Assembly (NCBI GenBank): GCA_030052745.1 | Contig: JANBVO010000033.1 | Coordinates: 186,001 to 250,000, forward strand | Origin: Pleurostoma richardsiae | Taxonomy: Eukaryota > Ascomycota > Sordariomycetes > Calosphaeriales > Pleurostomataceae | Length of the DNA: 64,000 nucleotides | Direction: 5' to 3' | Shown here: positions 3,747-55,485 of the stretch, one piece after another | Layout of the letters: the number at the start of each line of letters is the position of its first letter | Position numbering within the stretch: position 1 is the first letter of the stretch | Program-made: the position numbers and the translations under genes | Notes under the pieces: generated by a model | Told to the model about the DNA's origin: nothing | Databases searched by the model: none | The model's input: only the letters and a program-made list of their open reading frames with translations

Positions 3747-4057
3747 CTGGAATACATTTTGTCGAGGGAAAGGAGAAAGAACGGAATTCTGAGAACACGG
3801 AGTGGGCGACGAATCCGTCTTGAACGGCGGCGGCTAAGCAGCGCGAAGCAGAGGACTTCCAAATCGATTGGCTGACGCGGGGTAGCTGTTGCAGTGCGTT
3901 TAGGCAGCGATGGCGCGTCGGATTATTTACGACCTGCATGATCGTTCCAGGTATTTGTCTCCGTCAATTTCTCTTTTTCCTCAATAAGTGTCAAGTCTCC
4001 CTTTCACCAAACCCTCAAGTCCCAAAGCTTATCCAACTCTGCTTAGGATACCTCTTT

Positions 4058-6232
4058 ATGGCTCCAATTAGACGATCACGGCGCCGAGCTGGCACTACCG
4101 CCGAACCAAACGGGGACCTAGCAACTTCCCGGCCCTCCCGACCTGGTAACAATTGTCGCGAGCCCCGCGATGTCGACCACGAGCTTGACGACAGCCCCAT
4201 CGCAAGCAATTCTCAAGACAATAGGTTCTGGACACCGGAGCCAGAGCCGTATGATGAGGAGGCATATACTGCTTGGGGTCGGAAGCATTATGGAGAAGAC
4301 TGGTACGAACAGCGAGAGCTTATGTTCCAGGAAAGGAACCTCGTCAAGCTTGATGTGAAAGACGATCATATCTATCTGGAGCGTCAGAAAGCTCTCAGGC
4401 AGATGGAACGCGAAAGAGAGGAAGGGAAACTGCTTCTGGACAGGGCCAAGACGTGGCAGGAGCTCATGGCTTGGGCCCGAATGCATTACGGCGACGTCTG
4501 GTTCGCACAACGACAAGCTTTGGAGCAAGATAAGCAGCGAGAAAAAGAGGCAGAGGGTCGCAGTGACGAATACAAGAAATCGAAGAAAGCCCGCAGGCGG
4601 CGGGAATTGGTCCGAAATCTGCAATGGGATAAGGACGAAGAGATGCTGGCCCAAGGCAAGACATGGCAGGAGATTATGGCATGGCCTCCCCAGCCCTCAA
4701 GCATCATACCACCGACCGAGATGGCTATGAGCGAGGCCACCGGCGCCGATCCCGTGCGTTCGCCTTCTGTCAGCAGCGACGACAGCATGATCAGCACATA
4801 TCCCCCCACTCCAAGCGATTGTCGCCGTGAAGCAAAGCACGGGCCACAACCAATATATCCTCAGAAGGGCTATGATTCAGATGTTGCTTGGAAGGAAGCG
4901 ATGGGCAGTGCCAACTGGGAAGGGTTTGAGTGGCGAGCTATCGCGTGGCGCTGGTCTGAAGCGGAATATGAGGAAGGGAAGAAGGGCAAGGTAGAAGTGC
5001 TCAGGCACAAGAGATCACTGCGTGAGTATGTGGAGTCTAAGCGGAGGGATTTAGATGAACGGGCGGACATAGGACACGCCAATCGGTTCTTGCGGGGAGC
5101 CGACAAGGAAATCCAGCGCGAGCGCCGAATCAGAGACATTGATCTTCGGCAGAGAGGATGGACCCAGGAGGATATCGACGCCCTGGATCGAGAAATAGAT
5201 GCAAGGAGGAAGGAATTCCGTGAACGAAAACAAAAGGACATGGACACGCCCTGGATACCGGATAAGCCCAAGAATCAAGCGCAGATGAACGCGAGATTCC
5301 GGGCCTGGGACGCCGCAGGTCTGAGACGCGAGATGCAGAATGAGATGGCTCGCTCGTACGGCTTTCAGGAAAGGCCGCCCAGTGTAGATGGACACGACGA
5401 GACCGGACACATGTGGGTGTCGCAGTGGAAGGACTGGGATGAACAACCAAAGCAGCCCGTGGTACCCATACCACCCCCCAACCCGCCACGAGATCACAAG
5501 GAAATGAACAAGAGATTCCTCATCTGGGACGAGCGGGGAGTCGGCCGGGAGAGACAGATCGAATTGGCTCGCTTGTACGGGTTCAACGCCAGACCGACTA
5601 GCCCGGACGGGCATCTTGAGAGTATGGTGGCATCGCCATCTCAGTCATCACCCCGATCAAAGAAAGATGATCCTCTTCGGAAAAGCCGCGGCGGTCGGAT
5701 TGTGAAGACGGCACCAAAGAGACAACCCAGCGGTCCCGGAGGCCAGTCTAGACACTCTGCGTCAACACATGTGGACGCCGGCCAACGTCGGGATCCCTCC
5801 AAGTCTGCGGAGCTCGTGGAGCTTGACACTACAGCACTTGAATGGCGCAAGAGACCGCGCAATACCCGTGGGGAAGAAGGATCCTCTAAAAATGAGGCAG
5901 CCCCATCTCCACCGCCAGTGAATCCGGGTCGTGGCCGCAAGGTCAAATCGACAGTTATGAATACAGCCGAGCAGCCGGGCTCTCTAAAGCTCCGTCGGAG
6001 TGCCCGCATCGCTCACCAACTGGAACAAGCTAAACGAGCCAAACAGTCTGAGGTCCCCGTTGAGCAGTTATACTCAACGAAGCCCACGCCTTCACGGAAC
6101 GCCGCGCGAGACAAACGTAAGAAGGCTCGTGGTACTGTCTCTTCTGAGAGAGGAGCGCGGTCTCCGAAGATCTCATCATCTAAACCGCAGGACATAGTAA
6201 AGAAGAAGAAGGCCCGGCGGCGAAAGACATGA
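4058..6232 (+). CDS. Basic Trp-rich repeat protein, kinase-linked partner
   Basis: I do not recognise a named family. The frame is open from an ATG at 3938, but the ATG at 4058 gives a natural N-terminus (MAPIRRSRRRAG) and about 724 residues. Two kinds of internal repeat are visible: a pair of helical Trp-rich units (AWGRKHYGEDWYEQR and AWARMHYGDVWFAQR) and, further on, a pair sharing MNxRFxxWDxxGxxRExQxExARxYGF. Acidic and coiled-coil stretches rich in E/R/K separate them. The C-terminus has LKLRRSARIAHQLEQ and a final run of lysines and arginines (VKKKKARRRK), plausible nuclear localisation or DNA/chromatin-binding signals. The same C-terminal motifs occur in the protein at 21281-23202 and in the relic at 11098. 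It is divergently paired with the kinase at 1740-3746, so a shared promoter and a joint function are likely but unproven. Confidence 0.75.
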   Translation: MAPIRRSRRRAGTTAEPNGDLATSRPSRPGNNCREPRDVDHELDDSPIASNSQDNRFWTPEPEPYDEEAYTAWGRKHYGEDWYEQRELMFQERNLVKLDVKDDHIYLERQKALRQMEREREEGKLLLDRAKTWQELMAWARMHYGDVWFAQRQALEQDKQREKEAEGRSDEYKKSKKARRRRELVRNLQWDKDEEMLAQGKTWQEIMAWPPQPSSIIPPTEMAMSEATGADPVRSPSVSSDDSMISTYPPTPSDCRREAKHGPQPIYPQKGYDSDVAWKEAMGSANWEGFEWRAIAWRWSEAEYEEGKKGKVEVLRHKRSLREYVESKRRDLDERADIGHANRFLRGADKEIQRERRIRDIDLRQRGWTQEDIDALDREIDARRKEFRERKQKDMDTPWIPDKPKNQAQMNARFRAWDAAGLRREMQNEMARSYGFQERPPSVDGHDETGHMWVSQWKDWDEQPKQPVVPIPPPNPPRDHKEMNKRFLIWDERGVGRERQIELARLYGFNARPTSPDGHLESMVASPSQSSPRSKKDDPLRKSRGGRIVKTAPKRQPSGPGGQSRHSASTHVDAGQRRDPSKSAELVELDTTALEWRKRPRNTRGEEGSSKNEAAPSPPPVNPGRGRKVKSTVMNTAEQPGSLKLRRSARIAHQLEQAKRAKQSEVPVEQLYSTKPTPSRNAARDKRKKARGTVSSERGARSPKISSSKPQDIVKKKKARRRKT

Positions 6233-6425
6233 GTGGGCGCCAGCTGGACCTGGGACGTTGTCAGAAGTCGAATAGAACTATGCGGTCATTCACCGCTTGA
6301 GCATACTGTAGGAGGCTCACATCATGTCTTCTCAATCTATGTACTACCGTGTTTACAGGTTCAGCATAAGACCGTGAAGCTCGACCTACAATCGGGATGA
6401 GAACTAGCTTGCAAGAAATGGTCTA
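6233..6425 (+). repeat. Direct duplicate of 11484-11665
   Basis: The 3' flank of the basic protein gene shares long identical blocks with 11484-11665, for example GGAGGCTCACATCATGTCTTCTC and GAGAACTAGCTTGCA separated by similar sequence. Together with the coding relic at 11098-11506 this marks a segmental duplication of the 3' end of the gene plus its flank. Confidence 0.8.
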
Positions 6426-7029
6426 CGGCCCCGTTGAGGTAGGCATCCTGCACACAATCCCGTAGCAAGTCCCTTGTCTTCTCTTGACCAATAGGATGAA
6501 AGCCGCGTAGGTTCCCGGTCACCACGGGGGCTATTCCGCTCTATGTATACCTCCTCAAAGATCACAAATGTTAGCAAGTGTATAGGTCCCACATATTACC
6601 CCACATTTTATACAAGTATTCTGACTGGCAGTCTTGCCGTTGGGTGACTTCCAAATCTGGGCTCGGCTGAGCTCGGCCAAAATATAATGTACATGTACCT
6701 TATATTTTCCTGATTTAATACCATTGTCTATGTAGAGATACTTTCTAGAATAGGATTAGCGTAGTCTTGAAGTTCTATGCTAACATTTGTGATCCTTTAA
6801 GAGGTGTACGTAGTCACCAGCTACCCCGCTCATCTCTCCATCTAATTCTCTTTCCTGATTGGCCCTATTAGTGTCTTTGCACACACAGTACTGTACCAAT
6901 GGCTCATGCCCTGTTCCGTGGAGGTGTGCAAGCGAGGAAGCCTATACCGCTCTTAAGTGTACTGTACAGTGCTGTACAGTACAAGAAAATGACAGGAACG
7001 TAAATCTTCGAGATGATCGTTGCTGAAAG

Positions 7030-7210
7030 AGGCGATCATGCTTTACAGTAAAAGGCGAATTGGGTGTCACTAAATTTTTACTTAACTTTTTTAAAAATAG
7101 TGGGGTAAGTGTGGCTTTGCAGGATAAACGTGTAGCGGGAGGTACTGCACTAACAGAGCGATACCTAACACGGGCAGAACTGGCCGTCAATCGTCACATG
7201 ACCACTTCCT
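7030..7210 (+). repeat. Dispersed repeat, inverted partner at 9940-10160
   Basis: The block ATTGGGTGTCACTAAATTTT followed by a T-rich tract and GGGGTAAG, CAGGATA and CAGAACTGGC recurs in reverse complement at 9940-10160. The two copies lie ~2.7 kb apart, flanking the 385-aa orphan gene. This is compatible with transposon ends or a transposon-derived repeat family; no transposase is visible between them. Confidence 0.7.
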
Positions 7211-7755
7211 TAAGTATCTACGGGTTTCTACGGGATTCCATTTGGGGTCCCCTCTCACTATTTCCATGACCTAGTTAAAATCACATCGATACTGAGTCTC
7301 TTGAGATGCATCGGGTGGTGTCACGGACCTGCTCGGCCGGGCCCAGGGTCCGGAGCCCGGACCCTAACGACAGCGTTCTGCCAGGCTACACCGCCTGCGA
7401 CCTACTTCTGACAGAGCCTGACCGTCAATACTGAGTAGCTCCTTGAGCTACGTCTTCATCAACAACCTGTTGCTTGCCAGCCCTATAGAAGACTGTTAGC
7501 TAATTAATCGATCCTGAACCGCGCAGATTATTCCATGCTGGCTTCGCCGACACGACGCCATTCACCTCGCCTGGGCTTTTGGCCTACTTCGCTCTGCCAG
7601 GCACTTTCCTTCCCTTTCCAAGATAGGGATAAATACAATGCTTTCCACCCCGAAGACACTATCGTGTCGGCGGTGAGAGTACGAGATATAAAGACTAAAC
7701 GTGCGTTGCAATGATAACTGCAGTCTAATCCTACCAGTACGCATCATGGTCTGCC

Positions 7756-8913
7756 TCAGACGTGAGGGACCCGACGCTCTCCAAGCATCCGAGGAGGAAC
7801 CGGAGCGCAAGGACAGTACAGTGAAGAATAGAGCAGGAGACCAGCCTCTGTTGGGACCGTAAAATACGGGTCTTCAAAGAACTGGGGCTCCAATGCTATC
7901 GATGTGTACTGGCCGACAAAGGGTAGGCAGAGTCCCACCTGCTGAAGCAACACCCATCTCGGCTTGGGCCGGAGAGCTCCGATGTGCTTTAGATGCTGAC
8001 GGTCCTCCGGTAGAGGCGTACACATGAACACGTAGGGAGCCCCCCCGTCACCTCTTTGGCCTTCGATGCAGAAGGGCCGCATCGCGTCGGGGAAAGTAAG
8101 GGACTCGGTGATGGCGAGAGGCTTGACGGTTGGCATCAAGATATGCAGGATAGGCTCCTCGCCGATCCGGGGGCGGACCTCATTGACGAGGAAGGCGCAC
8201 AGCTCGTCCAGATCGTCCCTATAGCCGATAAATTGAGGCCCGAGCGGGTCCTGGCGCTGGAGATCCTCGAACTTGGGGTGCCACTCATGCCCCTGGTGGA
8301 AGACAAAGAAATAGTGTGCCACCTCGTCAAGGGTATGCCGCTCGATCATGGTTCGGACGTACGAGTGTACGTGCTGGGGAAAGTAGTCGCCCCGCGAGTT
8401 GACCGAGTTTAGGTTCTGGTCGATGCCGCACAGCGACCCGGCGATCTTCTCGGTGTTGTCCGCGAGCCGCTTGATGGCGGCAACAGCGCCCGCTTCCGTA
8501 AGGAGACCTCCGATGCCAAGGATCTGACCCACGACAGAGGGCTTGCCAAAGGCTTTGATGGCGTCTGCGATGGACCGTAACGTCTCGTTGGAGGCTTCGG
8601 CCCGGCTCTCTAAGCCCTGCAGGGTATTCAAGATCTGGCCCAATTGCTCTCGCGACACCTCGGCTTGCGACCCCGCTGCATGACTGAAGATGTCAACAAA
8701 AGACCGCATCTGGGCATTGCTGACATCCGCTGCGGCGACTAGCTTCCGGATCTCTGCCAGGGTTCTGGCACCGTTGGGATCGTGTCGGACTCGATCCGAT
8801 ATATTGAGAGCGAGGTTGACGGCGTTCATGGTCGTATTGGCGCCCGATTCCCAGTCCTTCAAAGCATAGCGGAGGAATTCTCCCGCCTCCCCAGCACTAC
8901 TATTGTTCGCCAT
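7756..8913 (-). CDS. Hypothetical protein, helical N-terminal half
   Basis: This intronless 385-residue protein starts at an ATG and does not match a family I recognise. Residues ~20-120 are predicted by eye to be helical with heptad-like spacing. Residues ~128-165 form an unusually Gly/Ala/Ile/Leu-rich stretch (VVGQILGIGGLLTEAGAVAA) that could be membrane-interacting or a buried helical hairpin. The C-terminal ~200 residues look globular, with several Trp, Pro and Cys. The gene sits alone between two inverted repeats (7030-7210 and 9940-10160), which raises the possibility that it is cargo of a mobile unit. Good codon structure over the full length supports it being a real gene. Confidence 0.65.
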   Translation of the reverse strand: MANNSSAGEAGEFLRYALKDWESGANTTMNAVNLALNISDRVRHDPNGARTLAEIRKLVAAADVSNAQMRSFVDIFSHAAGSQAEVSREQLGQILNTLQGLESRAEASNETLRSIADAIKAFGKPSVVGQILGIGGLLTEAGAVAAIKRLADNTEKIAGSLCGIDQNLNSVNSRGDYFPQHVHSYVRTMIERHTLDEVAHYFFVFHQGHEWHPKFEDLQRQDPLGPQFIGYRDDLDELCAFLVNEVRPRIGEEPILHILMPTVKPLAITESLTFPDAMRPFCIEGQRGDGGAPYVFMCTPLPEDRQHLKHIGALRPKPRWVLLQQVGLCLPFVGQYTSIALEPQFFEDPYFTVPTEAGLLLYSSLYCPCAPVPPRMLGERRVPHV

Positions 8914-9939
8914 CGCAGCTCGTCTTGTGCCGGGTTTTGAGGATGGATGGGGATGGAAACACCGGGCTACGTGCTATTATTTAAAATTGGCACCGACCGA
9001 TTGGGGGGGAATAAGATAAATAGAGGGGAAAAGCAAGTTAATAGGTCTGTAGACCAAGCGTTGGGCCATCTTTGGGCAGCAATGCTAGCACGTGGCTTGA
9101 GAGGCTCGACTTGTGCTCGACTGTGCCCGATTGTGCCCGAATATGGCTAAGACGCTTTGGTGATGTTTACTATGTAGTACTGTAAGGCGCAAGCTGGTTG
9201 TAGGTGGAGAGCACGGACCGTTTAGTGGCTCCAGCTTGACTTGGCGGGGGAGAAATATCTTTGAGTGCCCCATCCTTGCCATCCTAGCCGTCCTAGCCAA
9301 AGCTATCCCAGTCCCAGCCGCATGCAATCCCAATTGCCATTCTAGTCAAATATCGCGCCACCAAGCCAAACACCCATCCTAATGGCATGCTCGATCGTGG
9401 AAGACGCTACACTGGAGACTGTCCCTGTTACGGGTCCTGCCAATGGTTTGAGGAACTGAAGTATGCAGTTGTGGCGCATCGGTTTTGTGTGGCTTAAAAG
9501 AAGCTCGGGACGTTCAGTGGATCGGGCGCTGGGGAGGCGCTTTTGTCTCTTCGTTCCGTTCCTCAAGGCACGCGAAAATCTATGCCAGGGAACCAACCAA
9601 ATCCTGCAGCAGGACGCATTAATCACTTCAATCCAGTCTATTAATGCCATGTTCAGCCTCGTTAATGACCACCTTCAATATCCTTCTCCCAAAGTTACGA
9701 TAGTGGAAGTCTACCATTTCACATCGATACTGTATAGGTACGGCTGTTCGATTACATATTACAGAGGGCTTTCAGCATGGTTGATGTCATGCAGCTACGG
9801 CGGCCGACGGGCTGTTCTTCGACTGGGCATTTCGGACTGTTGTCTCTCTAGACGGATTCTCTGGACGGCGCGCATGGTGCACGAGGCTTTTGACGCTATT
9901 AACTGGTTCTCAATTCCTTGTGTTAGCAAAGATTTGATC

Positions 9940-10160
9940 AGGATACGCTGTGCAGCATCCAGTTGCGGCTCGAGAACGCTGATTCTGGTGGGGATAGAAG
10001 AAGAGGGGAAACAGCCAGTTCTGACTTTGTTAGGGATCGCTTTCTTATGTACTTCCCACTACAAGTGTATCCTGTAAAGCCACGCAGCCACAGGCTTACC
10101 CCGCCGATACTAAAAAAAGTTAAGTAAAAATTTAACGACACCTAATTTGCCTTGTACTGT
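9940..10160 (-). repeat. Dispersed repeat, inverted partner of 7030-7210
   Basis: The reverse complement of this block reproduces the order of motifs in 7030-7210: a GGTGTCGTTAAATTTTTAC-type block, a T-rich tract, GGGGTAAGCC, ACAGGATAC and CAGAACTGGC. It is the same family in the opposite orientation. Confidence 0.7.
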
Positions 10161-10549
10161 ACGATCGTTACAGTATTCAAAGCCGGATATGGACTGTAAT
10201 GTCCAGTTTTGTCGTACAGGACCAGGGTACTGTAGTATCTTGAGAGGTCTCTGCCTCTGGTTTTGGAGGACGGATGGCTGGCCTGAAGTTCCCGTGCACG
10301 GCGAGCAGGCCACAGCTGTGTCAGCCACACGGCGTCACTTAGCGCCGTAAGTGGCCACAACCTGCAGTACAGTGCGGACATCACCATCTGCTACTCCGTC
10401 GAGAGCATGTACATGCTGTCACAAAGGGTGTGCGTACGCAGTACAATTGTTACAGTAGAGCTTGGCACACACATCGCAGCAAATAATGGCCGTTGTTTTT
10501 CGGATCTACATTCAAGTGACACGGAGTAACCTTCCAGATATGGCGTTGA

Positions 10550-10790
10550 CTGTTAGGCAGCAAGTTCGGAGGTTGCTGCCGTCCTTTTCTGTCTCATTCC
10601 TTTGTTCTGCAGCAGCCATAATCGGCTTTCATGTATTTCATGTACTAGGAAAGTACCCTACTGTGTTTGGAAGACACCGTACCAGAGGAAGCCATCTTGG
10701 ATGGCCCAAGTATCTGATACGGCAGATACAGTACTTGAGCGAAACCGCACTGTATCAGTCAAGCCCGTGAGAATTCACGTGATGAGGCGC
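10550..10790 (+). repeat. Dispersed repeat shared with 27980-28180
   Basis: Both places contain CTGTCTCATTCCTTTGTTCTG-like sequence, then GCCATAATCGGCTTTCATGT, GGAAAGTACC and a tract around CTGATACGGCAG. Sequence identity is high but interrupted by substitutions, as expected for an old dispersed element. Confidence 0.65.
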
Positions 10791-10848: not shown

Positions 10849-11097
10849 ACGATGAACGGGCCGTAAGGACGTGCGAACCCCGCACGAAGATCGTAAGAAT
10901 ATGACACATGACCCACATACCCATTCCCTGACCGCCGATGTCATCCCATTTATCGATGCAAGTCTCGGTTTACATGACGGCACGTGCCGATTCTCTGTCT
11001 CCACGGCTCATATTCGAATCCCACATCGTCGCCTCCGCGACGTCCTTGGGCTCCCAATACCTGTAATCGACAAATTTTAATCTCATCTCCTCCATCT

Positions 11098-11506
11098 AAC
11101 TCGCCATAAACTTCAGGCAACCCTCGTCCCCCGCTCCATCCTCACTGCATCTGAGACTCACACGTGGCCGCAAGATACAGCCGAACAGCTCGAAGCTCCA
11201 AAGCTTCGTCGTAGCAGCCGTCTCGCTAGGCGAGAACAGGTCAAAGGAGAAGACAGAACCGAACGGTCTGCCGCCGCCCTTGAGCTGACAGACTCAGCCA
11301 TGACACGTCCACAGAAAGCCGTGCCAGACAAGGGTAAGAAATCTCGAGCGATCATGACTCGGGCAGGTGGCGCTGTCTCTCCGCCCAGAAGGGGCCGGTC
11401 TTTACAGACGGTGTCAGCTAAGGTTTCTAAGCCGCAGGGCATGGTAAAGAGGAGGGCCCGGCCTCGGGTTCCATTTCTGACGGGGACGTTGTGTGAAGTC
11501 GAATAG
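11098..11506 (+). pseudogene. Relic of the Trp-rich basic partner protein (C-terminus)
   Basis: The open frame reads LRRSSRLARREQ, then PRRGRSLQTVSAKVSKPQGM and VKRRARPR. These correspond to LRRSARIAHQLEQ ... SKPQDIVKKKKARRRK at the end of the protein at 4058-6232 and to RRGRSRRAVLSEASKPNGII in the protein at 21281-23202. Only the C-terminal ~110 residues remain and there is no plausible start. The downstream flank also matches that of the 4058 gene. I therefore call it a truncated duplicate rather than an independent short gene. Confidence 0.75.
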
Positions 11507-11665
11507 GATCACGCGGTCTTTCACCGCTTCTGCATACCGTGGGAGGCTCACATCATGTCTTCTCAATCCCCATACAGTACTGTACCATCGTGTTTACAGT
11601 ATTAGCGTACGACCGCGAAGCTCCAATCGGCGCGAGAACTAGCTTGCAGAGAATGGTCTATGGAC
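11484..11665 (+). repeat. Direct duplicate of 6233-6425
   Basis: This is the flank of the relic above, sharing GGGACGTTGT, GAAGTCGAATAG, GGAGGCTCACATCATGTCTT and GAGAACTAGCTTGCA with 6233-6425. Confidence 0.8.
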
Positions 11666-11949
11666 CTCTGGGCAGGCATCCTACTGCCTGTCCCAGTCTG
11701 GCTGGTGGTGATATGCCAGCATCAGGCGGGAACGAGGATGCTTTATCCGGCATGTCAGGGTACGTAGACCAGGGTATGGCGCTTACAAGAATCTGAAAGA
11801 GTGGTGCTGAACCTAGATTGTAGCTGCTTCTAATGACTATCTGGAAAAGGCCCCGTTCGGCAGCGGCGATCCGATAGAAAGCACATCACAACTGCATCGT
11901 CTCCGTTTTCTCCGTCACCGACCAGATCTGCAGCATCATCTCCAACTGA

Positions 11950-14964: not shown

Positions 14965-16400
14965 GAGCCCATTTTGCCGGGTGCGACTCCAGGGCTGGAT
15001 TGGAGGCCTGACAGTCCAGGGCTGGATTTTGGTTGGCTAGAGACCCAGTGCTGGAAGGGATTCCAGCGCTGGAGTGGTACGTCCTGAAGATCCAGCTCCG
15101 GATGGTTTTCCAGCTCTGGAGAAGTCGCTATCTGGAGGAATTTCCAGTGCATTGGAAACCCCTCCAGAATTGGAAACTACTCCAGTGCTGGAAACCGCTC
15201 CAGTGCTGGAAGCAGCTCCAGGTTGCCGGGTGCGACTCCAGTGCTGGATTGGAGGCCTGACAGTCCAGTGCTGGATTTTGGTTGCACCATTCCAGCACGG
15301 AAACTGAAGACCCAGTGCTGGAAGGGATTCCAGCGCTGGAGGGGTACGTCCCTGAAGATCCAGCTCCGGATGGTTTTCCAGCTCTGGAGGAGTGCAGCCA
15401 GCCACCCCTCCAGCGCTGGAAACCGCTCCAGAGCTGGAAGCCATTCCAGCACTGGAAACTCCTTCAGAGCTGGAAGCTGCTCCAGCGCTGGAAACCTATC
15501 CAGAGCTGGAAGCCATTCCAGCACTGGAAACTCCTCCAGGGCTGGAAGTCACTCCAGCGCTGGAAGCCGCTCCAGGACTGGAAGTCACTCCAGCGCTGGA
15601 AGCAGCTCCAGGGCTGGAAACCCCTCTGGAAGCTCCTCCAGTGCTGGAAACTCCTCCAGAGCTGGAAGCCGCTCCAACACTGGACCACCCCTCCAGCGCT
15701 GGAAACCGCTCCAGCGCTGGAAGTCACTCCAGCGCTGGAAGTCACTCCAGCGCTGGAAGCCGCTCCAGAGCTGGAAGTCGCTCCAGCACTGGACACTCCT
15801 CCAGCACTGGAAACCGCTCCAGGGCTGGAAGCCGCTCCAGAGCTGGAAACCCCTCCAGCACTGGACACTCCTCCAGGGCTGGAAACCCCTCCAGCACTGG
15901 AAACCCCTCCAGTGCTGGAAACCACTCCAACACTGGAAGCTCCTCCAGTGCTGGAAACTGCTCCAGAGCTGGAAGCCGCTCCAGTGCTGGAAGCCGCTCC
16001 AACACTGGAAGCTCCTCCAGTGCTGGAAACTCCTCCAGTGCTGGAAACCCCTCCAGCTCTGGAAGCCGCTCCAGTGCTGGAAACTCCTCCATTGCTGGAA
16101 ACTACTCCAGAGCTGGAAACTCCTCCAGTGCTGGAAGCCCCTCCAACACTGGAAGCTACTCCAGCACTGGAAGCCCCTCCAGAGCTGGAAACCCCTGGAA
16201 ACTCCTCCAGAGCTGGATCACAGGATCGTTAGCGCCTCTCCTCAGCGAATGGAGCGGCCTCCAGCTCTGGAGGAATTTCCAGCTCTGGAAGAGCTTCCAG
16301 CGCTAGAGGAGTGCTCGCTAAAGATCCAGTGCTGGAAGAGTTCCAGCGTTGGAGGGGTGTCTCTAAAAATCCAGCTCTGGAGGAATACATGGCAAGTCAG
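14965..16400. repeat. 18-bp palindromic minisatellite with higher-order duplication
   Basis: From about 15408 to 16200 roughly 44 head-to-tail 18-bp units are present, each of the form GGAAxCCxCTCCAGNNCT. The core CCAGNNCTGG is self-complementary, so every unit is a small palindrome and both strands look alike. Because 18 is a multiple of three and the units lack stops, all three forward frames stay open for hundreds of codons (6-residue periods such as APALEx, WKPLQS and SSAGNR), and long frames also exist on the minus strand. Upstream, 14972-15113 and 15214-15384 are diverged duplicates of one another, and a third partial copy ends the array at about 16310-16390. Coding is doubtful: ATG codons are almost absent from the array. 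Confidence 0.9.
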
Positions 16401-17009
16401 ATGGGAGAGACAAGATCGGAAATTTCATGTACTGAGAGCTCGCGTGATCATGGGACCGGATTCTTAGGTAAGGAGATATCGAGGAGAGGTGGTGCAAATG
16501 TATTCTTATAGTAGAAATACTAGAAGAGTGACCTTGTCAAGAGGTGGGCCTGTGGGGTAGAGTAGCTTGCCTGCAGAGAGATCCGGTTAGGAGTGGCTGA
16601 GGAGACCAACGAATTATACAGTATTGTAGCGCGACTAGTAATTACATAAGCTTTGAGGACTTGAAACGTCCCTCCATAGACCGTCCAGAAGCTCCTGTTC
16701 ATCGCTCACAAGAGAATTGGCGCCGCCAGATCCGGGTCGCCGAACATGACTGGGGCCGTGGTGGTGAGAATCATTCCAGGGCTAGGCTCAGGCGTGGACA
16801 CCGCGCACTGTCCAAACCTGAAGGTAGAATCCTACACGATACACGCACAGATGCACTTGACTGTGCTATATGGAAAGTCTCTCGCTGTCAGGCTGTACTT
16901 AGTTTAATGGCGTTTATGCAGAAGTGCTATGAAAAAGGTTACTCTAGTCTAGAACAGGCAGAGCGGTGACCCACTTGTGTACAAGCCGAGATTGCACCTG
17001 CGAAAGATG
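16401..17009. other. Gene-free stretch
   Basis: Intergenic sequence between the minisatellite and the 3' end of the next gene. Short open frames have no recognisable protein character. I see no RNA gene or repeat. Confidence 0.5.
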
Positions 17010-21280: not shown

Positions 21281-23202
21281 TCAAGGGCGAGGATTTGATT
21301 GGATGGGTCGCAGTCGTCCCCTCTTCTTTATGATGCCATTCGGTTTGGAAGCCTCGGACAGCACGGCTCTTCGCGACCGCCCTCTTCTTGGGGAGTGAGG
21401 CACAGAGCCGACTCCCACCGTCGATGTCGCTAGAGACTTGATAGGCTTATGCGGTGCACCTTTCCGCGGAGTGGTCTCGATCCGGTCCATCTGCGTAGCG
21501 GCAAGCCAGTCCTCTACTTTCATACCCCTTTCCTGTCGTACCCTCGTTGTTGGGCTTCTTGGCTGACTGCCTTGTGATTCTGGGGATGAGGGAGGCGTTG
21601 GTGCTTGTGCGATCTGCTGTTGACGAGCCACAATTCGACGGCTGCGACGAAGCTGGGAGACCAGTGGGAGAGGAGAAGTATTCGAGGATTGTGCACCTAG
21701 AAGCAAAGTGTTTTGCGATGCTCTCTTGTCGTGACTATCCTGATTTGCTGCTGTAGTGGCCTCAGACCCTAGTGGCCCTTCTATCGAGCCGTAGGCATCA
21801 TGTCTCAAACGTTTTCGAGGTGGCTCGTCAGCCACGCTGATACCGTTGTTTTTGCGCTTTTGAACTCGGCCTTGGCAACCACTCGATATGCTTTGCTTTG
21901 AGAAAGGAGGACGCTCTTCCTGATCCTGCTTGGCTTCATCGGTCTGGTACCTCGATTGTACCAACTCGAGCTGAATCAATGAGACTCGCTCCCGAATGCC
22001 TTGCAACAGTATGCTGTGGCGCTCAGCATGGCGCTTGGCGTCGCGGTAATCTTGTGTAGTGCGATAAAATTCGGTAACGAGATCATTTCGTCTCTTAATC
22101 GACTCGAATGACTGCATTGCTGAATCCAACCTGGCGTGGGCCTCCGCCAATCTTTGCAGTGCAAAGGTCGAAGGCTGCAATGGATCATCGATGACGTGCT
22201 GTGCCGACGATACAACCGATCGCGCAGACTTCACGGCTTTCTCAGCTTGAATCTCTTCACTCTCATGCTGGAAAGTGCACTCATCGTTCCATATGAACTC
22301 GTACGTCTCACGTGGCCCCAACACTCCCGAGTCCACGAGTTTGTTCCACTGTGCCTCATACCATTTCTCGCGGCGCTTGTACCAGGCGTATCTGCAGCTG
22401 TAGAAGTTGTGCTCATACGCCAGATACTCGATCCATGTTGTCAGCTGGTCTTGTTTCTTCGGGTCCTCGTTGAACTCGAACTCGACAGGCGCCGTGTATG
22501 AGTGTGTGTTCAGGAGGAATATCCTGGCCCATTGTGTGTATTCGGCAATGCGGCCCTCGAACTGCTTCCTCCTCCGTCTCTGCCACTCGCGGAATAGGTG
22601 CCATCTCAAGAGTTGTCTCCCGAATACCATCCAGTCGTCCGGCTGTGCATCGGGATATGGCTGCCAGGCCCGTAAGAGACCGCTGTGCTCTCTTGGGTGC
22701 TTCGAGACCTCTTCAAGAAGGTGGACTGGATACCAAGGCCGCCCACCGTCGTTGACTAGGGCATCGTGATCTTCTCGTTCCTCTGCCAATTTCCGCAGGT
22801 TTTCATCTTCGGGATCCGGTGTTCCGTATGCTGACAACGATGCACTTGATGAGTCTTCGGAGTTCTCGGGTGGCGCTCTTCTGTCGGTAGATATCTGCAG
22901 CAGTCGCGCAGAAACTTGGTTGAGATCAGATCGCGTCGTATCGTTCGCGACATTCACTCGATCCCTGCTCAGCCGTTAGAATAACTACCAGTTATAGAAC
23001 GAATATCGTCACCTTAATCTCTGAATAAAAGATTCGGGCAAGTTTTCGGGGTCCTGGACACGAACAAGCCTATCCGCCTGTCAGCAAAGACGCACGACCA
23101 GTCAGCAAAGTCAACAGACCTTCCGCTTTCTTCCAGATATCGATCGAGTTCCGCATCGTCGTATGCGGCGATCTCGCGCGCCAACAACTTTGAAGCTGCC
23201 AT
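21281..23202 (-). CDS. Basic Trp/Arg-rich protein, partner of the FHA-kinase
   Basis: Three exons (23202-23120, 23069-23013, 22964-21281) with introns of 50 and 48 bases yield about 607 residues; the main frame by itself lacks an ATG. The N-terminus (MAASKLLAREIAAYDDAELD) is helical. A central segment is strikingly rich in Trp, Tyr and Arg (RWHLFREWQRRRRKQFEGR; YAWYKRREKWYEAQWNK). A coiled coil follows, then a disordered tail with LRRSRRIVARQQQ, PRRGRSRRA and SKPNGIIKKRGR, motifs shared with the protein at 4058-6232. It is divergently arranged with the FHA-kinase gene whose ATG lies ~410 bases away, duplicating the kinase/partner layout at 1.7-6.2 kb. A nuclear location is likely; the biochemical role is unknown. 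Confidence 0.75.
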
Positions 23203-23613
23203 GGGATATAGGAGATGATCTGTCTTCGAAAAGCTGTTGTTGACAGACTTCGCCTTGGGTAATTTGTCCTGTTTCGTCGGAACGAGGTTTCCAGGCAGCA
23301 ATATTATTTTAAGGCAGCCAGATTTGCAGTGGGGGTGGGTCCTGACATGAAAGCATCACCACCAGTCACACACCTCGCTTTGCCGCTGCGGCAGACCAAT
23401 CAGATTATATGGTTGGTCACCCTGATTGGCCTTTGACTGCTTGCTGCCTGGACAACTCACGGAGGAGCAGATTTGATTGGGCCTGGTGACTTGTGTCCGT
23501 TGGCAAGTCGGCCTTCCTTTTGGCCTTCATTTTGTTATGGCTGTCTACTTAAAGAGTAACAGTGAACCCTCGATTTATTCCCCGCATTGTCTGATGTGAA
23601 TCACACATCAACC

Positions 23614-26487
23614 ATGGCAGATCCAAATCTGATCGCTTACCTCTATCCAACTGGCGACAGGCTTTTGCACCTTGAGAATGCGTTACGCACAATTCGCATG
23701 GCCGAGAATGAGCCGCGACGCATCGAGCCATTGATTGAGGATCGGAGTCAACGGTCCTCCCAGGCTCCGGAAGACGAAGCCAACGACTGCTTGTATGAGA
23801 ACAACGACGGCGACAACGACGGATATCACGACCAAGAGGAAGCCAGCAATATTCCGAACAACGATTACAGCCCAGGACTGCAGCTCAGATTCGACGAATG
23901 GCGCAAGAACCGAGAAGGATTTGTCATTGGTACGAGCCGGAACTGTGACATTGTCTTGCCGAGACGGGAGAGCCTGAGTGGCCTTGCTCCTCGTCAGTGT
24001 GTCATCACCTTTGATGACCAAGGTCGCCTCATCCTCCGGGATGTGCAGGACCGAAGGAAGAAAGGTGGTACTGCCGTCACATACAACGGTAAAGGAGAAC
24101 AGAAGTGCCGTACGTTCACGTGGATCCTCAGTGGTCATAAATTTCCCGAGCGCAATCAGCCAATCAACATCATACTCCATGAAAATCTGAAGTTTCAAAT
24201 CGTCGTCGCTCACCAGGACATTCACTCGGCTGCATACCAGGAAAACGTCGCCCAATTTCGCCTGAGAGTTGCCACAAACCTGGATGATATCTCTTTTGGT
24301 GGATTTGGCTTGGAGAGTCTCAACTCGACAGCTGCGCCAAGCGGGGCGCAAAGCCCGATCAGAGACGTCATCCTTCTCGACAATGGGGAGCTCGGCAGAG
24401 GAGCCCAGGCAGTGGTTTCACGGGTGTGGAACGTCAGCACCGGGCTAGAGTACGCCTCCAAGGAGCCTCTCTCGAAGAGATTCCGCAAGCGTTTGGCGAC
24501 AGAAGTCGACATACTGAAACAGATCAACCATGTGAGTCGATTGTGTATACTCTGAACTGCAGAGCCACTAATGCCCTAGTAGGAACACATCGTCAAATGC
24601 ATTCCCGAGTGGTCGACAGCAATGCCGGAGCCTCGACTAGTCATAGAGTACATCCCTCTTGGGACCCTCGAACAGCAAGCGAAGAAGAGGGCGATCACGG
24701 GAGAAGAGAGCGTGGCGATTCTTCACCAAGGCCTTTCGGGTTTGAGGTACCTTCATGAGCGAGAAGACCCGATCGTCCACCGAGACATTAAACCGAGCAA
24801 TATCCTCGTTCAATCACGGACCCCTCACATTCATATCAAGCTATCAGACTTTGGCTATTCGAAAGAGAGCCAGGATTATCTGAAAACGGTCTGCGGCACA
24901 CGGCGCTATGCCGCCCCTGAAGTCCACAACCGTCAAAGCTACGATGCGGCCGTCGATGTCTGGTCTCTCGGTGTAGTTGTCTTTCAGTACTCCCACGGCC
25001 TTCCGGATCTCGACAGAACGACAGACTTTGATGGGGTGAACTGTAGCAGGATCCTCGAGGCTCTCACAACCAAGACCAAACAATCGCACTGCCCGATGCT
25101 GAGATTCTTATCGACAGCCATGCTCGTCGCCAAGCCGGATCTACGATACTCCGCACACAGGTGCGAGCAGCAGGCATGGTGGCTCGATCCATCACAATGT
25201 CGTTGCCTACCACCAACCGAGGTCTCCTATGTCCAGGAAGATGCAACGACAGTGATCTACAACCCTCCCGCAGGACCCCGAGGTCAGCTAGACCGGCAAA
25301 TCTCACAGGACAATTACGTTAACGCGGACGTGGACCATCGATATCCCACGGTCTCCACAGCCGTCGGAAGACGCATCAGATCAGCCGCTCCACCTCCTGA
25401 GTCTTCTGTGCCGGCATCTGTGGGTAGCCGGAAGAGGAAAATTCGGATATCGGAATCGTCGGGACGCGCCAAACAACCAGGGCGCAACGATGCGCCCCAG
25501 GAAGCAGCGTACTTCTTTGGCAAGTTCCCGAATCCGCTTCATCAACTCTATGTTGGGTCCTCTCTTGCCGAAAAAGAAAGTTCCGATTGGACCAACGGGA
25601 CGAGTCAACCTTCGACAGGCTCTGTCCGGCGGAGCCTGCCCGTGGGCGATCGATCTAGTGATTCGACTGTGCTTCCAAACTGGTACAGAGAACCAAGCGG
25701 TCATGTTGCACTTCCGGATCTACCGAACACTGGTAGCGCACACTCCGGCGACGAAGGCGTCCTAGATCGAGTCCGCTATCTTAGCGAAGTAATGCACAAC
25801 TGGCGAGAAGGAGAACCAGCCAGTACACTGATCTACAAACATGCTTCGTTCCACGAATATACCGATGCGTTGTGTCCCGGCTTTTTGCCACCCACTTCCA
25901 ACATCGAAGCGGTCGACGGCGAGGGTATACCATTCCACTACAGCATTATGGGCGAAGCGTATGCCGAACCAGCCGCAGCCACGCTGAGCCATACATTACG
26001 CAGTCTCCCGGATCCTGCTGATCAGCAGGGTAATGGCCACGGCTACCTTCAGAACGACATGCCCGGTCCCGCAGTCGAATCGAGAGGCGTGTCCGACTCT
26101 GCCGTAACAGATGCCAATCTGCCACCTGGGTTCGCAGCCATCTCCTGGAATGGAAAGTTGATCGCACATCGGCCTGATGAAGGAACTGTGAACGTGACTC
26201 AGGCAGCCCAGGCAATAGGCATGACATTAAATCAACTCCATTACAAACTCCGCCATAAAGAAACGAAAGAAACGGAAATTCAGCGTTATACGTTAAGAGG
26301 GTTTTCTAGTTACAAGGGGACATATGTGGGATATAAAGACGCACGGAAGGTTATGGGAACCGATGGTACCAGTCTTATGGACAGCTTGTTGCCAATGGTT
26401 GTTCAAGAGGGTCGGAGTCAGGACGTTCGAACCCCAGGGAGCAGTGGGGCAGTTTCCAACCCTGAGCCACTTGAGACTGTTGGCTAG
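23614..26487 (+). CDS. FHA-domain Ser/Thr kinase with KilA-N/APSES-like tail
   Basis: Exons 23614-24531 and 24583-26487 flank a 51-base intron (GTGAGT ... CTAAT ... TAG), giving 940 residues. Residues ~88-215 form an FHA domain (FVIGTSRNCDIVLP, later CVITFDDQGRLILRD). The kinase domain starts at ~255 (LGRGAQAVVSRV) and has HRDIKPSN at ~372, DFG at ~395 and APE at ~417, so it should be active. A long disordered region follows. Residues ~828-896 carry a segment resembling KilA-N/APSES DNA-binding domains: TVNVTQAAQAIG, then YKGTYVGYKDARKV, matching the VNATxxxxAxG and YxGTWVPxxxA signature. Fusion of a phosphopeptide-binding kinase to a DNA-binding fold would suit a chromatin-directed kinase; that is inference. 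The coding-like sequence continues beyond the TAG (see 26488-27024). Confidence 0.85.
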
Positions 26488-27024
26488 CCGGCACCCAGTC
26501 ACGGGAGCAATCCGCAAGACTCGCACCACGTTAGATCGAGGCCGACGACCGTGGCTGACCTCTCCATGTCAAAGCTCCTCGAAGCACATCAGCCCGATCT
26601 CTCAAGCAATCTATCATCTATTCCACTCAGTCATTCAGGCCCGCAAAGACATGCATCATCTCTTCCGGCGCGGCGCATCCCGACCCTGACATTGAAAAGA
26701 GCAATGCCACCCCACAAGCACTTCATCGACAGAATCGGCTGGCCAGTCAGGTATCGACGAAGATGCTGAGCAGGCAATGTTCGGCAACAAATTCACATTC
26801 ACTGCCCCAAGTCTCGATCAATTATGTGACGAGCACGAGAGTGACGGAGAGACGCCTGCGGTCTCCTCTTCGGCAAAGAGACTTCTGCAAAGGAAGCCAG
26901 GACATGGCCAGAAGACGAAGCGCGGAACCAAGAAGCAGCGGCTGAGACCACCTGCGGAGGAGCCTGAATTGAATGCGGGGCCGCTAGAGAGCTATCGCAT
27001 CATCGAGGCGATAAAGGACTTATG
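26488..27024 (+). pseudogene. Out-of-frame continuation of the FHA-kinase C-terminus
   Basis: After the TAG at 26485 the same frame continues with coding-like sequence (TVADLSMSKLLEAHQPDLSS). The sense then appears to pass into a second frame (AHPDPDIEKSNATPQ) and a third (SGIDEDAEQAMFGNKFTFT ... KTKRGTKKQRLR ... IIEAIKDL, stop 27024). This looks like a former nuclear C-terminal tail disrupted by a nonsense change and small indels, or an unusual set of short introns that I could not place. A separate short gene starting at the ATG at 26777 is the main alternative. Confidence 0.45.
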
Positions 27025-27979
27025 ACTGACTATCTTATGGCTGTTTGTTCAATCGTCATTGAGTGGCAAGGCCCCAGCGCGTGAGGAACCCTTTCACCCC
27101 CGAAACTTGCCATATGATAGCGGGGCCATTCTAAAATTTGGGAATTTGGCGCGCCCAATACGGGGACGGGTCTCCGTCAGACGGGAGGCGCCGAGCTCAG
27201 ACCCACCGGCCAAACAAGGCCCGGACAGAAGACCAGCTGGGCGAAGGATAGTGCGTGGAGTTAGCGCGCCTCTTTCCCGCATGCGATCGGCGGCGCTTCC
27301 CTCGACAACTTCTCGAACAGACAAAAGTGCTTAGTGACAGCTCTGGGGATCGTCGTAAACAGGCTCATTCCCTGCGTACTCTAACGATACTCTTGGGCAT
27401 AGAGATTTCTCTTCATGTTTCCTGTTTCTTTCAGATCTTAGATATCCTGGAATCGTCCAAGGGGCCAGTGGCCGACGAACCCTCAACGAGCACTATGTCG
27501 ATCAAATCCAGATGCACGTTTAAGTTTTTGCAGTGAGCGCATAAAACTATAGTACAGTACATATGGGATGACTAGGCTCACAGGTTTGTACATACTGACG
27601 CTGGCTTAGTTCATGACCGCCCTGATGCATGGGGCTGGAAGTACCTGCATGTTTCCTCAGAAGAGAGCGCCCGGATCCAGCCTTTGACACTCTGTTACTC
27701 ATGATAGAAAACGCTCTTGGAGTGTGGGAGAGATGGACCTCAAAGTTACAGAGTGCAGCGCGTAAGCCACAAACAGCTGTGTCAGTGCTAAACGTGGTCT
27801 GCCATTGGGCAACTTGTCATACAGTGCTGATTTTTGGTATGTTCTTTTATGTACATTCCGTCTCCAAGCGCTGAATACGCAGTACAGAGGTGGGAGCCAA
27901 AAATGGTCGCTACGTTTCAAGTTACATAAGAGCGACAGTTAAGTAACCTTCCCAGGTGATGACTACACTTCCAAACGCC

Positions 27980-28180
27980 AGGCTTGGAGGACAATTGCCC
28001 TTCTCTCTGTCTCATTTCTTTGTTCTGCAATAGCCATAGTTGGCTGTCATGTATCCCGTATACTGGGTAAGTACCGTATTGTGGTCTGAAAAGCTCAAAA
28101 CCGCTCCTCACCCGAGTGTCTGATAGGGCAGGTACTACACAATACACTCACGGAACAAAACTGCACAGTGTCAGCCTAAC
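27980..28180 (+). repeat. Dispersed repeat shared with 10550-10790
   Basis: Carries the CTGTCTCATTTCTTTGTTCTG block, GCCATAGTTGGCTGTCATGT, GTAAGTACCG and a GTCTGATAGGGCAGG tract in the same order as 10550-10790. Confidence 0.65.
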
Positions 28181-29237: not shown

Positions 29238-30348
29238 ATGTCTCCAGATCGCCATCCAAATGCACCCTTCCACGTCACACGAACAAATGCCAGACAGATG
29301 CTACGGGGTGCACAGGCTCGAAGCGTTCTCTCTGATATCATCCGCCTCAAAGACGGGACGCTCCCACTCCCCAAGGTGAAGGAGCAAATTGAGAGAAGGC
29401 TTTCTTATGATCAGTGGTTGAAACTGAGTCATTGGATAGAATATCATGCGGAAGATGATTTGCGCAACTACTGGGACACAAAGCTACAGTAAGTTGATAA
29501 CTTTACTGGCCAGCCTTTTACCATGTTACAGGAGTTAAGGAGTTGTTAGCTTTGACTACACATGCGATCCACCGGGTTCCGGCAAGAACTTTGTCATTCG
29601 CATTCCTACTGCACCCCATCAGGTTGTACTCGGAGCTATGACCAAAGAGATCTTCGAGTGGTTAAAGGATGTCAGGGAGAACGAGGAATACAATCATGGG
29701 AATGAAACGACTATTGATATTGCCCACAATATCACAGCCCGGAACTCGACGAGGGTCTGCCTCGAGAACGGCGATGATTGGGAGCCAGATCAGTCCTTTA
29801 AGATCAAGAGGACGGGCCAAAAGAAGAGCCATCCATATCCCGCCGTGGTGATTGAAATCTCGTATTTGCAGAGATACAAGAACCTGGAGCATAGAGCAGA
29901 GACGTGGATCAGATTCAGCAATTCGAACGTCCGAACTGTCATTGGGCTTGACCTCAACGATGTCTACAAGCAAAACCAGTCTGCCACCGTCTTTGTTTGG
30001 AAATCACGAGATGGGGAACCAGAGCTGTTAGTAAAGAGCCAGGTGCGTTTTTTCCAGTGTTCTACTCAATCTACCCTTCAATGATAGAAATTCCTGACCA
30101 GAGATGTGAGGCAGTTTCGAGACGAGAGCGGCAGGGCTATTCCAGATGTTGATCTATGCGTTTCATTGAGCGATTTTCTGCAAGATGATGATGTTCAAGA
30201 AAACAGCAGATTTGTCGACCCAAAGATGCTGATTTCTTCCAAGGAGATTGTGATGGCCCTGGAGGATGGGGTCGAAGACCAAGAGATAGTGAAGAGGAGC
30301 CGTGAAGAGATTAAGAGTAGGATCGAGGCTCAGAAATCCAACAGATGA
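29238..30348 (+). CDS. PD-(D/E)XK-like nuclease-family protein (paralogue 1)
   Basis: Exons 29238-29488, 29550-30042 and 30088-30348 (introns of 61 and 45 bases) give about 334 residues. After an N-terminal helical region comes FDYTCDPPGSGKNFVIRIP, then PDQSF and, ~15 residues on, YPAVVIEISYLQ followed by a helix and VRTVIGLDLND. The spacing of the Asp, the Glu in VIEI and the final strand-helix-strand resembles the PD-(D/E)XK/Uma2-type nuclease fold found in large fungal families. The usual lysine is not evident, so catalysis is uncertain. A C-terminal VDLCVSLSDFL motif and a short Glu/Lys helix follow. Two paralogues in the window (32259, 54406) share both intron positions and phases. Confidence 0.75.
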
Positions 30349-30572
30349 TTTTCAGCGTTGCGTATCGTGTCCGGCTGGAGCGGGACTCTACGAAGGAGGA
30401 GATGGTGAATTACAAGCCTAACAGATGGCAGGCAAGCGGTAATACCTTGAAATAAGATCATATTTGCTTTGACTCTCCTTACAAGCGTCCGGTGCTTCCC
30501 ATCAGCAATCACTGCTTCAGGTTTCTTTACAACAGCTAGAGAGATTCGGTCGGTGATCAACCTCTCAGCTGA

Positions 30573-32258: not shown

Positions 32259-33628
32259 TCACCTTTTCTTCCTCAGCCCTATCTCGGCCATTTTTGCTTC
32301 CACTTCAGCCACCTTCTTCTCCGCCTCAACTTTCCTTTTCTCTGCACGGGCCGTCACGTTGTCTACCTTGCTCATCTTTTCTTTTATGTCCTTCATCGAG
32401 CTTCTCATCAGAACAACACCGTGTCTTATGTCGGACATCATATTTTGCACCTCCGCCAAGTCGTTCTCCATCTCCTTCATCCTGAGCATCTGCTCCAAGG
32501 ACTCATCTGCTTTCCTCACTACTTTGTCCAGCACTTTCTCTGCCTCGTTCAGGACATGGTCCCAAAATGCATCCTTATAAAGGCAATGAAGTTTTGTTGA
32601 GGGGATCTCCAGAGATACATCTTCAAAGTCTCCCATCTTATTCTCTTTCTGTTCGCATAAGAAGTCTTTCAGGGAAAGACGCATGATGCAGTCTTTGACG
32701 GCTTGTCCATTTTCGTCGATGAACACCTGGGTTGCCGTCAGAACTATCGTAACAACCTGGGACTTCGGAACGTCTCATCATACCTGATCTTTAACCGCCG
32801 GGACTGATCTCCACTTGTCGCCGACAGGTCGAGCTTTCCATATAGAGAACGTCGCCCGAGATGCGCCCCGGTAGATATCACCCATATTCAGCCCGATGAC
32901 AGTGCGGATTCTGCCGTTCTTCCCTTCAATATATCGCCGTGCCCTGTCGGACAACCGCAAATTGCTCTGAGACCATGCCACTTCAACCAACAAGTCGGCA
33001 ACCGTACAACCCCTAAAAGTATAGGAGAGATCTGGATCCAGGTGGTCGCCGTGGGGTTCATTACATCTCACCCTTGCTGCGAGCGAAGAATGTATCTTCT
33101 TCGCCACATTCTTGGTCTCCTCTTGAGTACTGTCAACCGTGCAAACTGCACCTATTTCGATGGAACCTAGCCATTTAACGATCTGGTCGCTAAACATCCC
33201 AGCCATGCTCTGGTGGAAGGTAGACGGCACATGGATGACGAAGTGCTTGTCGCCTCGGAGAGGGCGACGCATGTAATCGAAGCTAGCATGTCAGAAGCGT
33301 CGTATGCCATGATCTTGGGAAAACGGGCTTACTGGAGATCCTCGAGAAAATGCAGGAATTCTTCGTTTTCCTCCTTCCTCAGCTCCACCTCCCGTAGCAG
33401 CTTATAGCCGGAATAGCGAAGCATCCGCTGGATCAAGTACTTTCCTTGTGGCCCGCCTTTCTTGACCGAGTACGTGCCGTTCTTGACTTCTCTTAACGTT
33501 CTCAAGACCCGCCTTACATCCGCCAGATCCCGGGCTCGCGCTCGGGATCCTCGATCCCGAGCCCCGCTTCGACGAGACGCCAGACTGTCGGTATCTGTAA
33601 GAATTCGGGCGGGGAGAGGATCGAGCAC
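32259..33628 (-). CDS. PD-(D/E)XK-like nuclease-family protein (paralogue 2)
   Basis: Exons end/start at 33333, 33282-32784 and 32726-32259, with introns of 50 and 57 bases at the same positions and phases as in the paralogue at 29238. The first-exon frame opens at a GTG (33628) with a stop just upstream and its first in-frame ATG is far inside, so the true start or a first exon is unresolved. About 420 codons are open. FDYMRRPLRGDKHFVIHVP is followed by DPDLSYTFRG ... LLVEVAWSQS and RIRTVIGLNMG, the same Asp/Glu arrangement as its paralogues. After MRLSLKDFLCEQ the protein has a long coiled coil (KRKVEAEKKVAEVEAKM) absent in paralogue 1. Its upstream flank (33645-33830) is duplicated at 36447-36650. 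Confidence 0.65.
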
Positions 33629-54405: not shown

Positions 54406-55485
54406 ATGTCGTACTGTCAGGGATTTGGCGACGAGTGCTTGCCGGAAACCCAGAAGGCCAGTTGTCAATTTGAAGACTCTCAATCCTCGGCCATCCGGAG
54501 GGTAGTCGACCAAATCAGAGAAATCAAAGACGGCAAAAACGAGAGCGAAGAGCTCTTAATCAGCATCAAGCTCTCCGGCTCCGAATATCGACAATTGCTT
54601 GAGTATATAGAAAAGTCCAAAGACGAATCACTGCGAGGATTTTTCAATGACACACTTCGGTAAGCGGATTCGATGGTCCAACATATGGTGAGTCCTGTCT
54701 GACATGTCAGGTACGACTACACGCGTTCTAAGAAGGCCTTTGTCATTCGAATGTCTTCCTATATTCACGATATTGTAGCCGAAAATATAGGGGTATCCAT
54801 AGGAGCCTGGTTACAAGACATTGGGAAGAGTTCTGACGAGAATGCTGCTCAAATCGCCAAGCAAGTGGTCCCTGCAGGAAGCTCTACTATCGAATTCCGA
54901 TTGGCAAAGGGCAAACCGGATCAAAAGTCAGCGGATAAGATTTTTCAGCACACAAGCTGCAACTACCCCAGCCTGGTCATAGAGATGGCAAGGTCCCAGA
55001 GTGAGAAAGAACTGGTAGAACGTGCCGAGTCTTTCATAATACGATCCAAAGGTCAGATTCGCACTGTTGTTGGGATAAATCTGCACAGACTCTGCCTGGC
55101 AGAGTGGGATAATGACGTGGCCGAGGCACCTGCCCTCTTTTCAGTGTGGAAGGCCGACTTTGATTCCAAGGGAAAAGTGACTTGCCGACCAGTGGTCGTA
55201 AATCAGGTATTCTCCATGACCCCCTCTTCTCTTGACAAAATTCTGATGACATGGAAGGCCTTCCGAGACGAAGAAGGGAAGGCTGTTCTAGGTGAAGATG
55301 GAGAGCCGATAGTCCTACAGCTCTCATTGAAAGAGGATTTCATCTGCAGGAAGGTCGCGGACTCGATCACAGATTCCGATTGTCCGGCGCCTTTGAAACT
55401 GTCATCGAAAAAACTCTGCGAGTATTATGACTTAGCGGTAGCTCTGTACCGTAGACGACAAATGGCGTGGAGTTTAGATTCATGA
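54406..55485 (+). CDS. PD-(D/E)XK-like nuclease-family protein (paralogue 3)
   Basis: Exons 54406-54659, 54711-55206 and 55258-55485 (two 51-base introns) encode about 325 residues. The second intron is in frame and stop-free, but its position after VNQ matches the proven-looking introns of the two paralogues, so it is probably real. Landmarks are YDYTRSKKAFVIRM, a KSADKIF segment (candidate Asp), YPSLVIEMARSQS with the candidate Glu, and QIRTVVGINLH. These match the PD-(D/E)XK-like pattern in the genes at 29238 and 32259. The C-terminal LQLSLKEDFIC motif follows. The frame stops at 55485, while acidic coding-like sequence continues in another frame to 55605. Confidence 0.75.

Follow-up and report, generated by a model that had tools for sequence, protein, structure and literature searches.

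Recurrent head-to-head pairing of FHA-family kinase genes with genes for basic two-box-tail proteins in Pleurostoma richardsiae

In the genome of Pleurostoma richardsiae, genes for Ser/Thr kinases of a fungal FHA-kinase family recur head-to-head with genes for basic proteins that end in a two-box tail, and we have little doubt that this pairing is real. Two such divergent pairs, pair A at 1740-6232 and pair B at 21281-26487, are situated in the window, i.e., in the whole stretch of 64,000 nucleotides that was analysed (C64:186001-250000 of an assembly of 39.4 Mb in 136 contigs), as an earlier note on this DNA had described; two further divergent pairs, at C60:460.8-465k and C64:328.5-332.4k, confirm that the linkage recurs within the same genome. 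The more far-reaching statement that each pair constitutes a two-gene unit, composed of an FHA-family kinase and a nuclear partner acting as its anchor or substrate, is put forward tentatively, mechanism included, as the best explanation. The features in the window are the following.

1740-3746, minus strand: kinase A, 654 aa when spliced, N-terminal FHA-like domain and Ser/Thr kinase domain (Pkinase 8e-34)
Within kinase A, minus strand: intron of 42 bases (a reading of 51 bases is possible), directly before the QPNIV motif
3747-4057, no strand: divergent intergenic region of pair A, 311 bases from start to start
4058-6232, plus strand: partner A, 724 aa in a single exon, tail boxes RRSARI and SKPQDIVKK
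11081-11506, plus strand: relic, an open frame corresponding to a partner 3' end, tail boxes RRSSRL and SKPQGMVKR
21281-23202 (5' limit approximate), minus strand: partner B, main exon 22975-21281 of 564 aa, tail boxes RRSRRI and SKPNGIIKK
23203-23613, no strand: divergent intergenic region of pair B, 411 bases from start to start
23614-26487, plus strand: kinase B, FHA (2.8e-4) and Pkinase (4.8e-34) by Pfam, followed by a C-terminal region
24532-24582, plus strand: sole intron of kinase B, 51 bases

Concerning pair B, the two short 5' exons that would extend partner B up to 23202 are predicted. The pair had been thought to reach to 27024, but the frame of kinase B stops at 26487, and the stretch 26813-27086, which is 85% identical to a site about 35 kb distant on this contig, does not belong to it. 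The FHA domain of kinase B lies N-terminal to the kinase domain and scores 21.7 bits against a Pfam cut-off of 20.7. At the C-terminus (26083-26487), a helix-turn-helix match (HTH_8) of 20.2 bits stays below the cut-off of 22; judged from this sub-cut-off match, kinase B is possibly a DNA-binding kinase. A KilA-N/APSES domain in the same region is unsupported, as Pfam gave the sub-threshold HTH_8 alone, and a comparison of the region with solved structures yielded no match below E 0.8. Further downstream in the window, a repeated, uncharacterised protein family is present at 29307-30420, 32496-33592, and 54703-55485, and neither of the two members scanned has a Pfam match; of the stretches at 29307-30420 and 32496-33592, repeats (76% and 81%) also lie nearby on this contig.

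Concerning pair A, partner A is rich in Trp (3.0%) and Arg (12.6%) and carries a net charge of +29. The partner-tail relic, previously placed at 11098-11506, proved to be an open frame beginning at 11081. Its 3' flank resembles that of partner A (11483-11682 versus 6252-6449, 76% DNA identity), and since the relic runs on into this partner-A-like flank, it has arisen by duplication of the 3' end of a gene like that of partner A. Further pieces of partner A were found by the genome search in two places on C85 and on C134. The C-terminus of kinase A itself ends in SQPAGVAKR (1779-1805), which resembles the second box of the partner tails; a related tail is present in a paralogue of kinase A on C93 (49% over 35 aa, E 0.01), and this ending is absent from the other four kinases treated below (kinase B and those on C60, C64, and C5). 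Kinase and partner might, to judge from this resemblance, bind a common third factor. Between partner A and the relic, at 7044-10161, there is an insertion of about 3.1 kb with imperfect inverted repeats of about 145 bp (75%) at its ends; it holds a DUF6579 gene (8913-7756, Pfam 5e-20) and is 0.8 kb away from pair A, and in a copy on C85 the flanks of the insertion are uninterrupted, i.e., an empty site is found there. At 14974-16467, the window contains a long degenerate array of short tandem repeats, in which frames rich in Trp, Leu, Gln, and Lys are open on both strands.

The two pairs situated elsewhere contain the nearest complete relatives of kinase A, namely k60 at C60:463256 (plus strand) and k64 at C64:330266 (minus strand). 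Their partners are as follows.

From C60:462476 downwards, head-to-head with k60: partner p60, uninterrupted, Trp/Arg-rich, 561 aa, gap of 779 bases
From C64:330716 upwards, head-to-head with k64: partner p64, uninterrupted, Trp/Arg-rich, 567 aa, gap of 449 bases

Identity between p60 and p64 amounts to 39% (blastp) to 45%, compared to 56% between k60 and k64, such that the partners diverge faster than the kinases. In a genome search that scored the best candidates only, the p60/p64 type was found in two copies, each adjoining one of the two copies of the k60/k64 type. Four of the five recognised complete kinases of the group are accompanied by a divergent partner that ends in the two-box tail. 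The fifth, at C5:15209 (minus strand), has upstream of it, at a distance of 173 bases, a tandem basic neighbour of 237 aa without the tail, for which neither a Pfam family at cut-off nor any other genome place below E 0.4 was found.

The neighbourhoods of kinases were examined at six loci picked by kinship, i.e., on C60, at C64:330k, and on C5, C78, C93, and C98. Upstream of an FHA kinase on C78, the single control with enough flank, no ORF of at least 120 aa with the two-box tail is present within 3.1 kb; two Arg/Trp-rich frames on the minus strand (201 and 155 aa) are both tailless, and the shorter one overlaps the first exon of the C78 kinase itself. A truncated kinase on C93 has a Rad10/ERCC1 gene upstream, and a marginal partner-A match next to this kinase (E 0.09) was not counted. 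For a fragment of kinase B on C98 and for the partner fragments on C85 and C134, no counterpart was found nearby by tblastn in the DNA examined.

The tail motifs shared by the partners, already claimed in the earlier note, are real. The DNA examined, a part of the genome, contains 419 distinct stop-to-stop ORFs with a length of 130 aa or more, and the two-box tail occurs in six of them, i.e., in the four divergent partners, in the relic, and in one relic on C85; not one of 41,900 shuffled tails carries it. The narrower motif of the earlier note had been fixed beforehand, and since the pattern was later widened to admit the tails of p60 and p64 after these had been seen, the enrichment is partly post hoc. 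The relic matches tail A and tail B with a score reached by none of 1000 shuffles in either case; a direct comparison of tail A with tail B lacks significance, 339 of 1000 shuffles scoring as high. As one and the same part of the relic matches both tails, tails A and B are homologous via this intermediate. The likeness of the p60 and p64 tails to the relic is one of motif alone (94 and 32 of 200 shuffles as high, respectively). The assumed homology of partners A and B is supported for the tails only, not over the whole length.

Outside the tails, weak hints of relationship come from the Trp-rich N-terminal parts of partners A and B (6 of 400 shuffles as high) and from partner B and p64 (3 of 200), and profile comparison among the partners found nothing. 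No NCBIfam family was assigned to the partners of the four pairs, and partners A and B do not reach any Pfam cut-off. The partners are basic proteins in which the Trp residues are clustered, and the predicted structure of the N-terminal part of partner B is all helical, at low confidence (pLDDT 48). The middle part of partner B and its SKPxGI-KR tail presumably resemble a large, uncharacterised family of Trp-rich helical proteins of filamentous ascomycetes sometimes named 'ankyrin 2,3/unc44', on which no title was seen among the matches listed in a literature search for 'unc44'. The Trp/Arg-rich basic composition, which had been regarded as a telling feature of the partners, was dropped as a criterion, since chance frames near two other kinases exhibit the same composition; for this reason, the C5 neighbour is counted as suggestive only.

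The kinases of pairs A and B can be aligned in the catalytic domain only (28.7% identity over 230 aa). A duplicated module had been supposed. Pair B cannot be regarded as a recent duplicate of pair A: there is no DNA similarity between the genes, and the kinases, at 28%, are not sisters. In a tree of 33 kinases of this genome (A, B, and 31 loci chosen from 70 and 58 places), kinase A groups with the truncated C93 kinase (at 1010k; 99/96), kinase B weakly with the C5 kinase (88/77), and A, B, and the kinases on C93, C60, C64, and C5 form one cluster with the C78 FHA kinase at a support of 84/94, which the tree tool does not rate as firm. A phase-0 intron site is common to kinases A, B, k60, k64, and C5 and to the C78 FHA kinase, the GTRAGT donor directly following a histidine, immediately ahead of a (P/D/E)(H/N)IV motif, and other in-frame readings being possible in A and C5 and several in C78. 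Setting C93 aside, inspection by eye showed that the reading frame passes this site without a break in 15 of the 26 other tree kinases and left 11 undecided.

With regard to the FHA domain that had been ascribed to both kinases, the assignment stands for kinase B, in which the Pfam cut-off is passed, whereas kinase A gave no profile hit; Pfam FHA is equally below detection in k60, k64, and the C5 kinase. Kinase A and k60 have homologous N-terminal domains (0 of 2000 shuffles as high); the corresponding values for kinase A are 8 of 2000 against k64 and 71 of 2000 against kinase B, and none of the other comparisons of N-terminal domains that involved B or C5 reached significance. Compared with the FHA domain of the C78 kinase, 9 of 1000 shuffles score as high for B, 77 for A, 302 for k60, 112 for k64, and 498 for C5. 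Profile comparison of the N-terminal domains with the FHA domains of the genome itself found nothing, and a structure model of the N-terminal part of kinase A, built from an alignment of three rows, was too poor to use (pLDDT 34). Kinases A, B, k60, and C5 possess intact HRD, DFG, and APE motifs, and k64 has DLG for DFG. Together with the glycine-rich loop and its lysine, the set is complete in A, B, and k60, such that these three should be active; the C5 kinase gave no match to the glycine-loop pattern. The kinases of the unit are, judged by these motifs, probably active as Ser/Thr kinases.

FHA-domain checkpoint kinases are of the Rad53/Chk2 type. Similar to these, kinase B possesses an FHA domain before the Ser/Thr kinase domain, and the kinases of the pairs have the same intron site as the C78 FHA kinase. 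They differ in that the kinases of the pairs have diverged far, the FHA profile does not recognise kinase A and its relatives, and four of them adjoin a partner with the two-box tail, whereas the C78 kinase is without one upstream.

In the favoured reading, the unit would consist of a Ser/Thr kinase of the fungal FHA-kinase family and, head-to-head with it, a Trp/Arg-rich protein that evolves fast and ends in a basic two-box tail. Both genes may be expressed together by virtue of the short intergenic region that they share; the intergenic regions of the four pairs contain neither a 7-base word common to all nor an excess of shared promoter words. The partner would be nuclear, with the basic tail binding DNA, a chromatin factor, or an import factor, and the FHA or FHA-like domain of the kinase would dock on a phosphothreonine of the partner, which would thus be anchor and substrate at the same time. 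A nuclear kinase with an anchor or substrate appears to be the likeliest function, and a pair serving conflict or allorecognition its main rival.

Rather unlikely, in our judgement, is the alternative that the genes are inherited neighbours only, i.e., that one ancestral divergent pair was copied and its adjacency remained unbroken, without any cooperation of the two proteins. The intron site common to all five kinases makes descent from one ancestor likely, and p60/p64 together with k60/k64 look like the product of one co-duplication. Nevertheless, linkage and tail have persisted between pairs A and B despite a kinase identity of 28% and partners that are alike in the tail only. Moreover, the linkage can be lost, as illustrated by the broken kinases on C93 and C98, which have no clear partner, and by the partner fragments on C85, which have no kinase match in the DNA examined.

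The rival concerning function, a conflict pair involved in self/non-self recognition, killer/antidote action, or incompatibility, in which one protein controls the other and both diversify fast, is considered unlikely. It takes as its model the fungal incompatibility loci with adjacent regulator and effector genes. Divergent regulator/effector pairs are known from fungal incompatibility, and paired immune receptors from plants; like these, the pairs described here are head-to-head and fast-diverging and are accompanied by repeated copies and relics. The partners diverge fast, the pairing is recurrent, copies, partial copies, and relics are found on C64, C85, C134, C98, and C93, and the setting is rich in repeats and locally duplicated. 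Unlike these systems, however, the proteins scanned exhibit no immune or cell-death domain at cut-off: in five kinases and five partners (partner B without its 5' exons), Pfam detected no HET, NACHT/NB-ARC, HeLo, or similar domain, and neither an NLR nor a pore-forming domain was found at cut-off. Among the matches listed in a literature search, there was likewise no such conflict system. We hold as distinctly unlikely the broader statement that filamentous fungi possess a paired family of FHA-type kinases and fast-evolving nuclear partners that originated from a checkpoint-type FHA kinase, acts as a recognition or killer/antidote unit, and has been diversified by duplication and decay.

Transport of the pairs as cargo within transposons, which would account for the copies, is very improbable: relics and partial copies on several contigs, the inverted-repeat insertion close to pair A, and short repeats near both window pairs (10588-10665 versus 28006-28083, 82%; 1201-1260 versus 28757-28695, 77%) are in line with it, but these repeats, which are short and unequally distant, have similar counterparts elsewhere in the region, none was seen to bracket a pair in the comparison at the DNA level (which covered the two window pairs), and the insertion has a gene of its own, its main ORF being DUF6579 and not a transposase.

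Both protein types presumably resemble families of filamentous ascomycetes that are large and uncharacterised. Among the matches listed in a literature search, none described such a kinase/partner pair, and no relatives were found in viral contigs, bacterial and archaeal genomes, or plasmids; as these collections are non-fungal, absence from them says nothing about other fungi.

Some fungal genomes are rich in kinases without a known role: an excerpt of PMC6001611 gives an average of 41 unclassified kinases for Fusarium genomes and few for most other filamentous fungi. For such kinases, a recurrent partner tagged by its tail constitutes a directly testable candidate substrate or anchor, and the pairing may mark an undescribed module.
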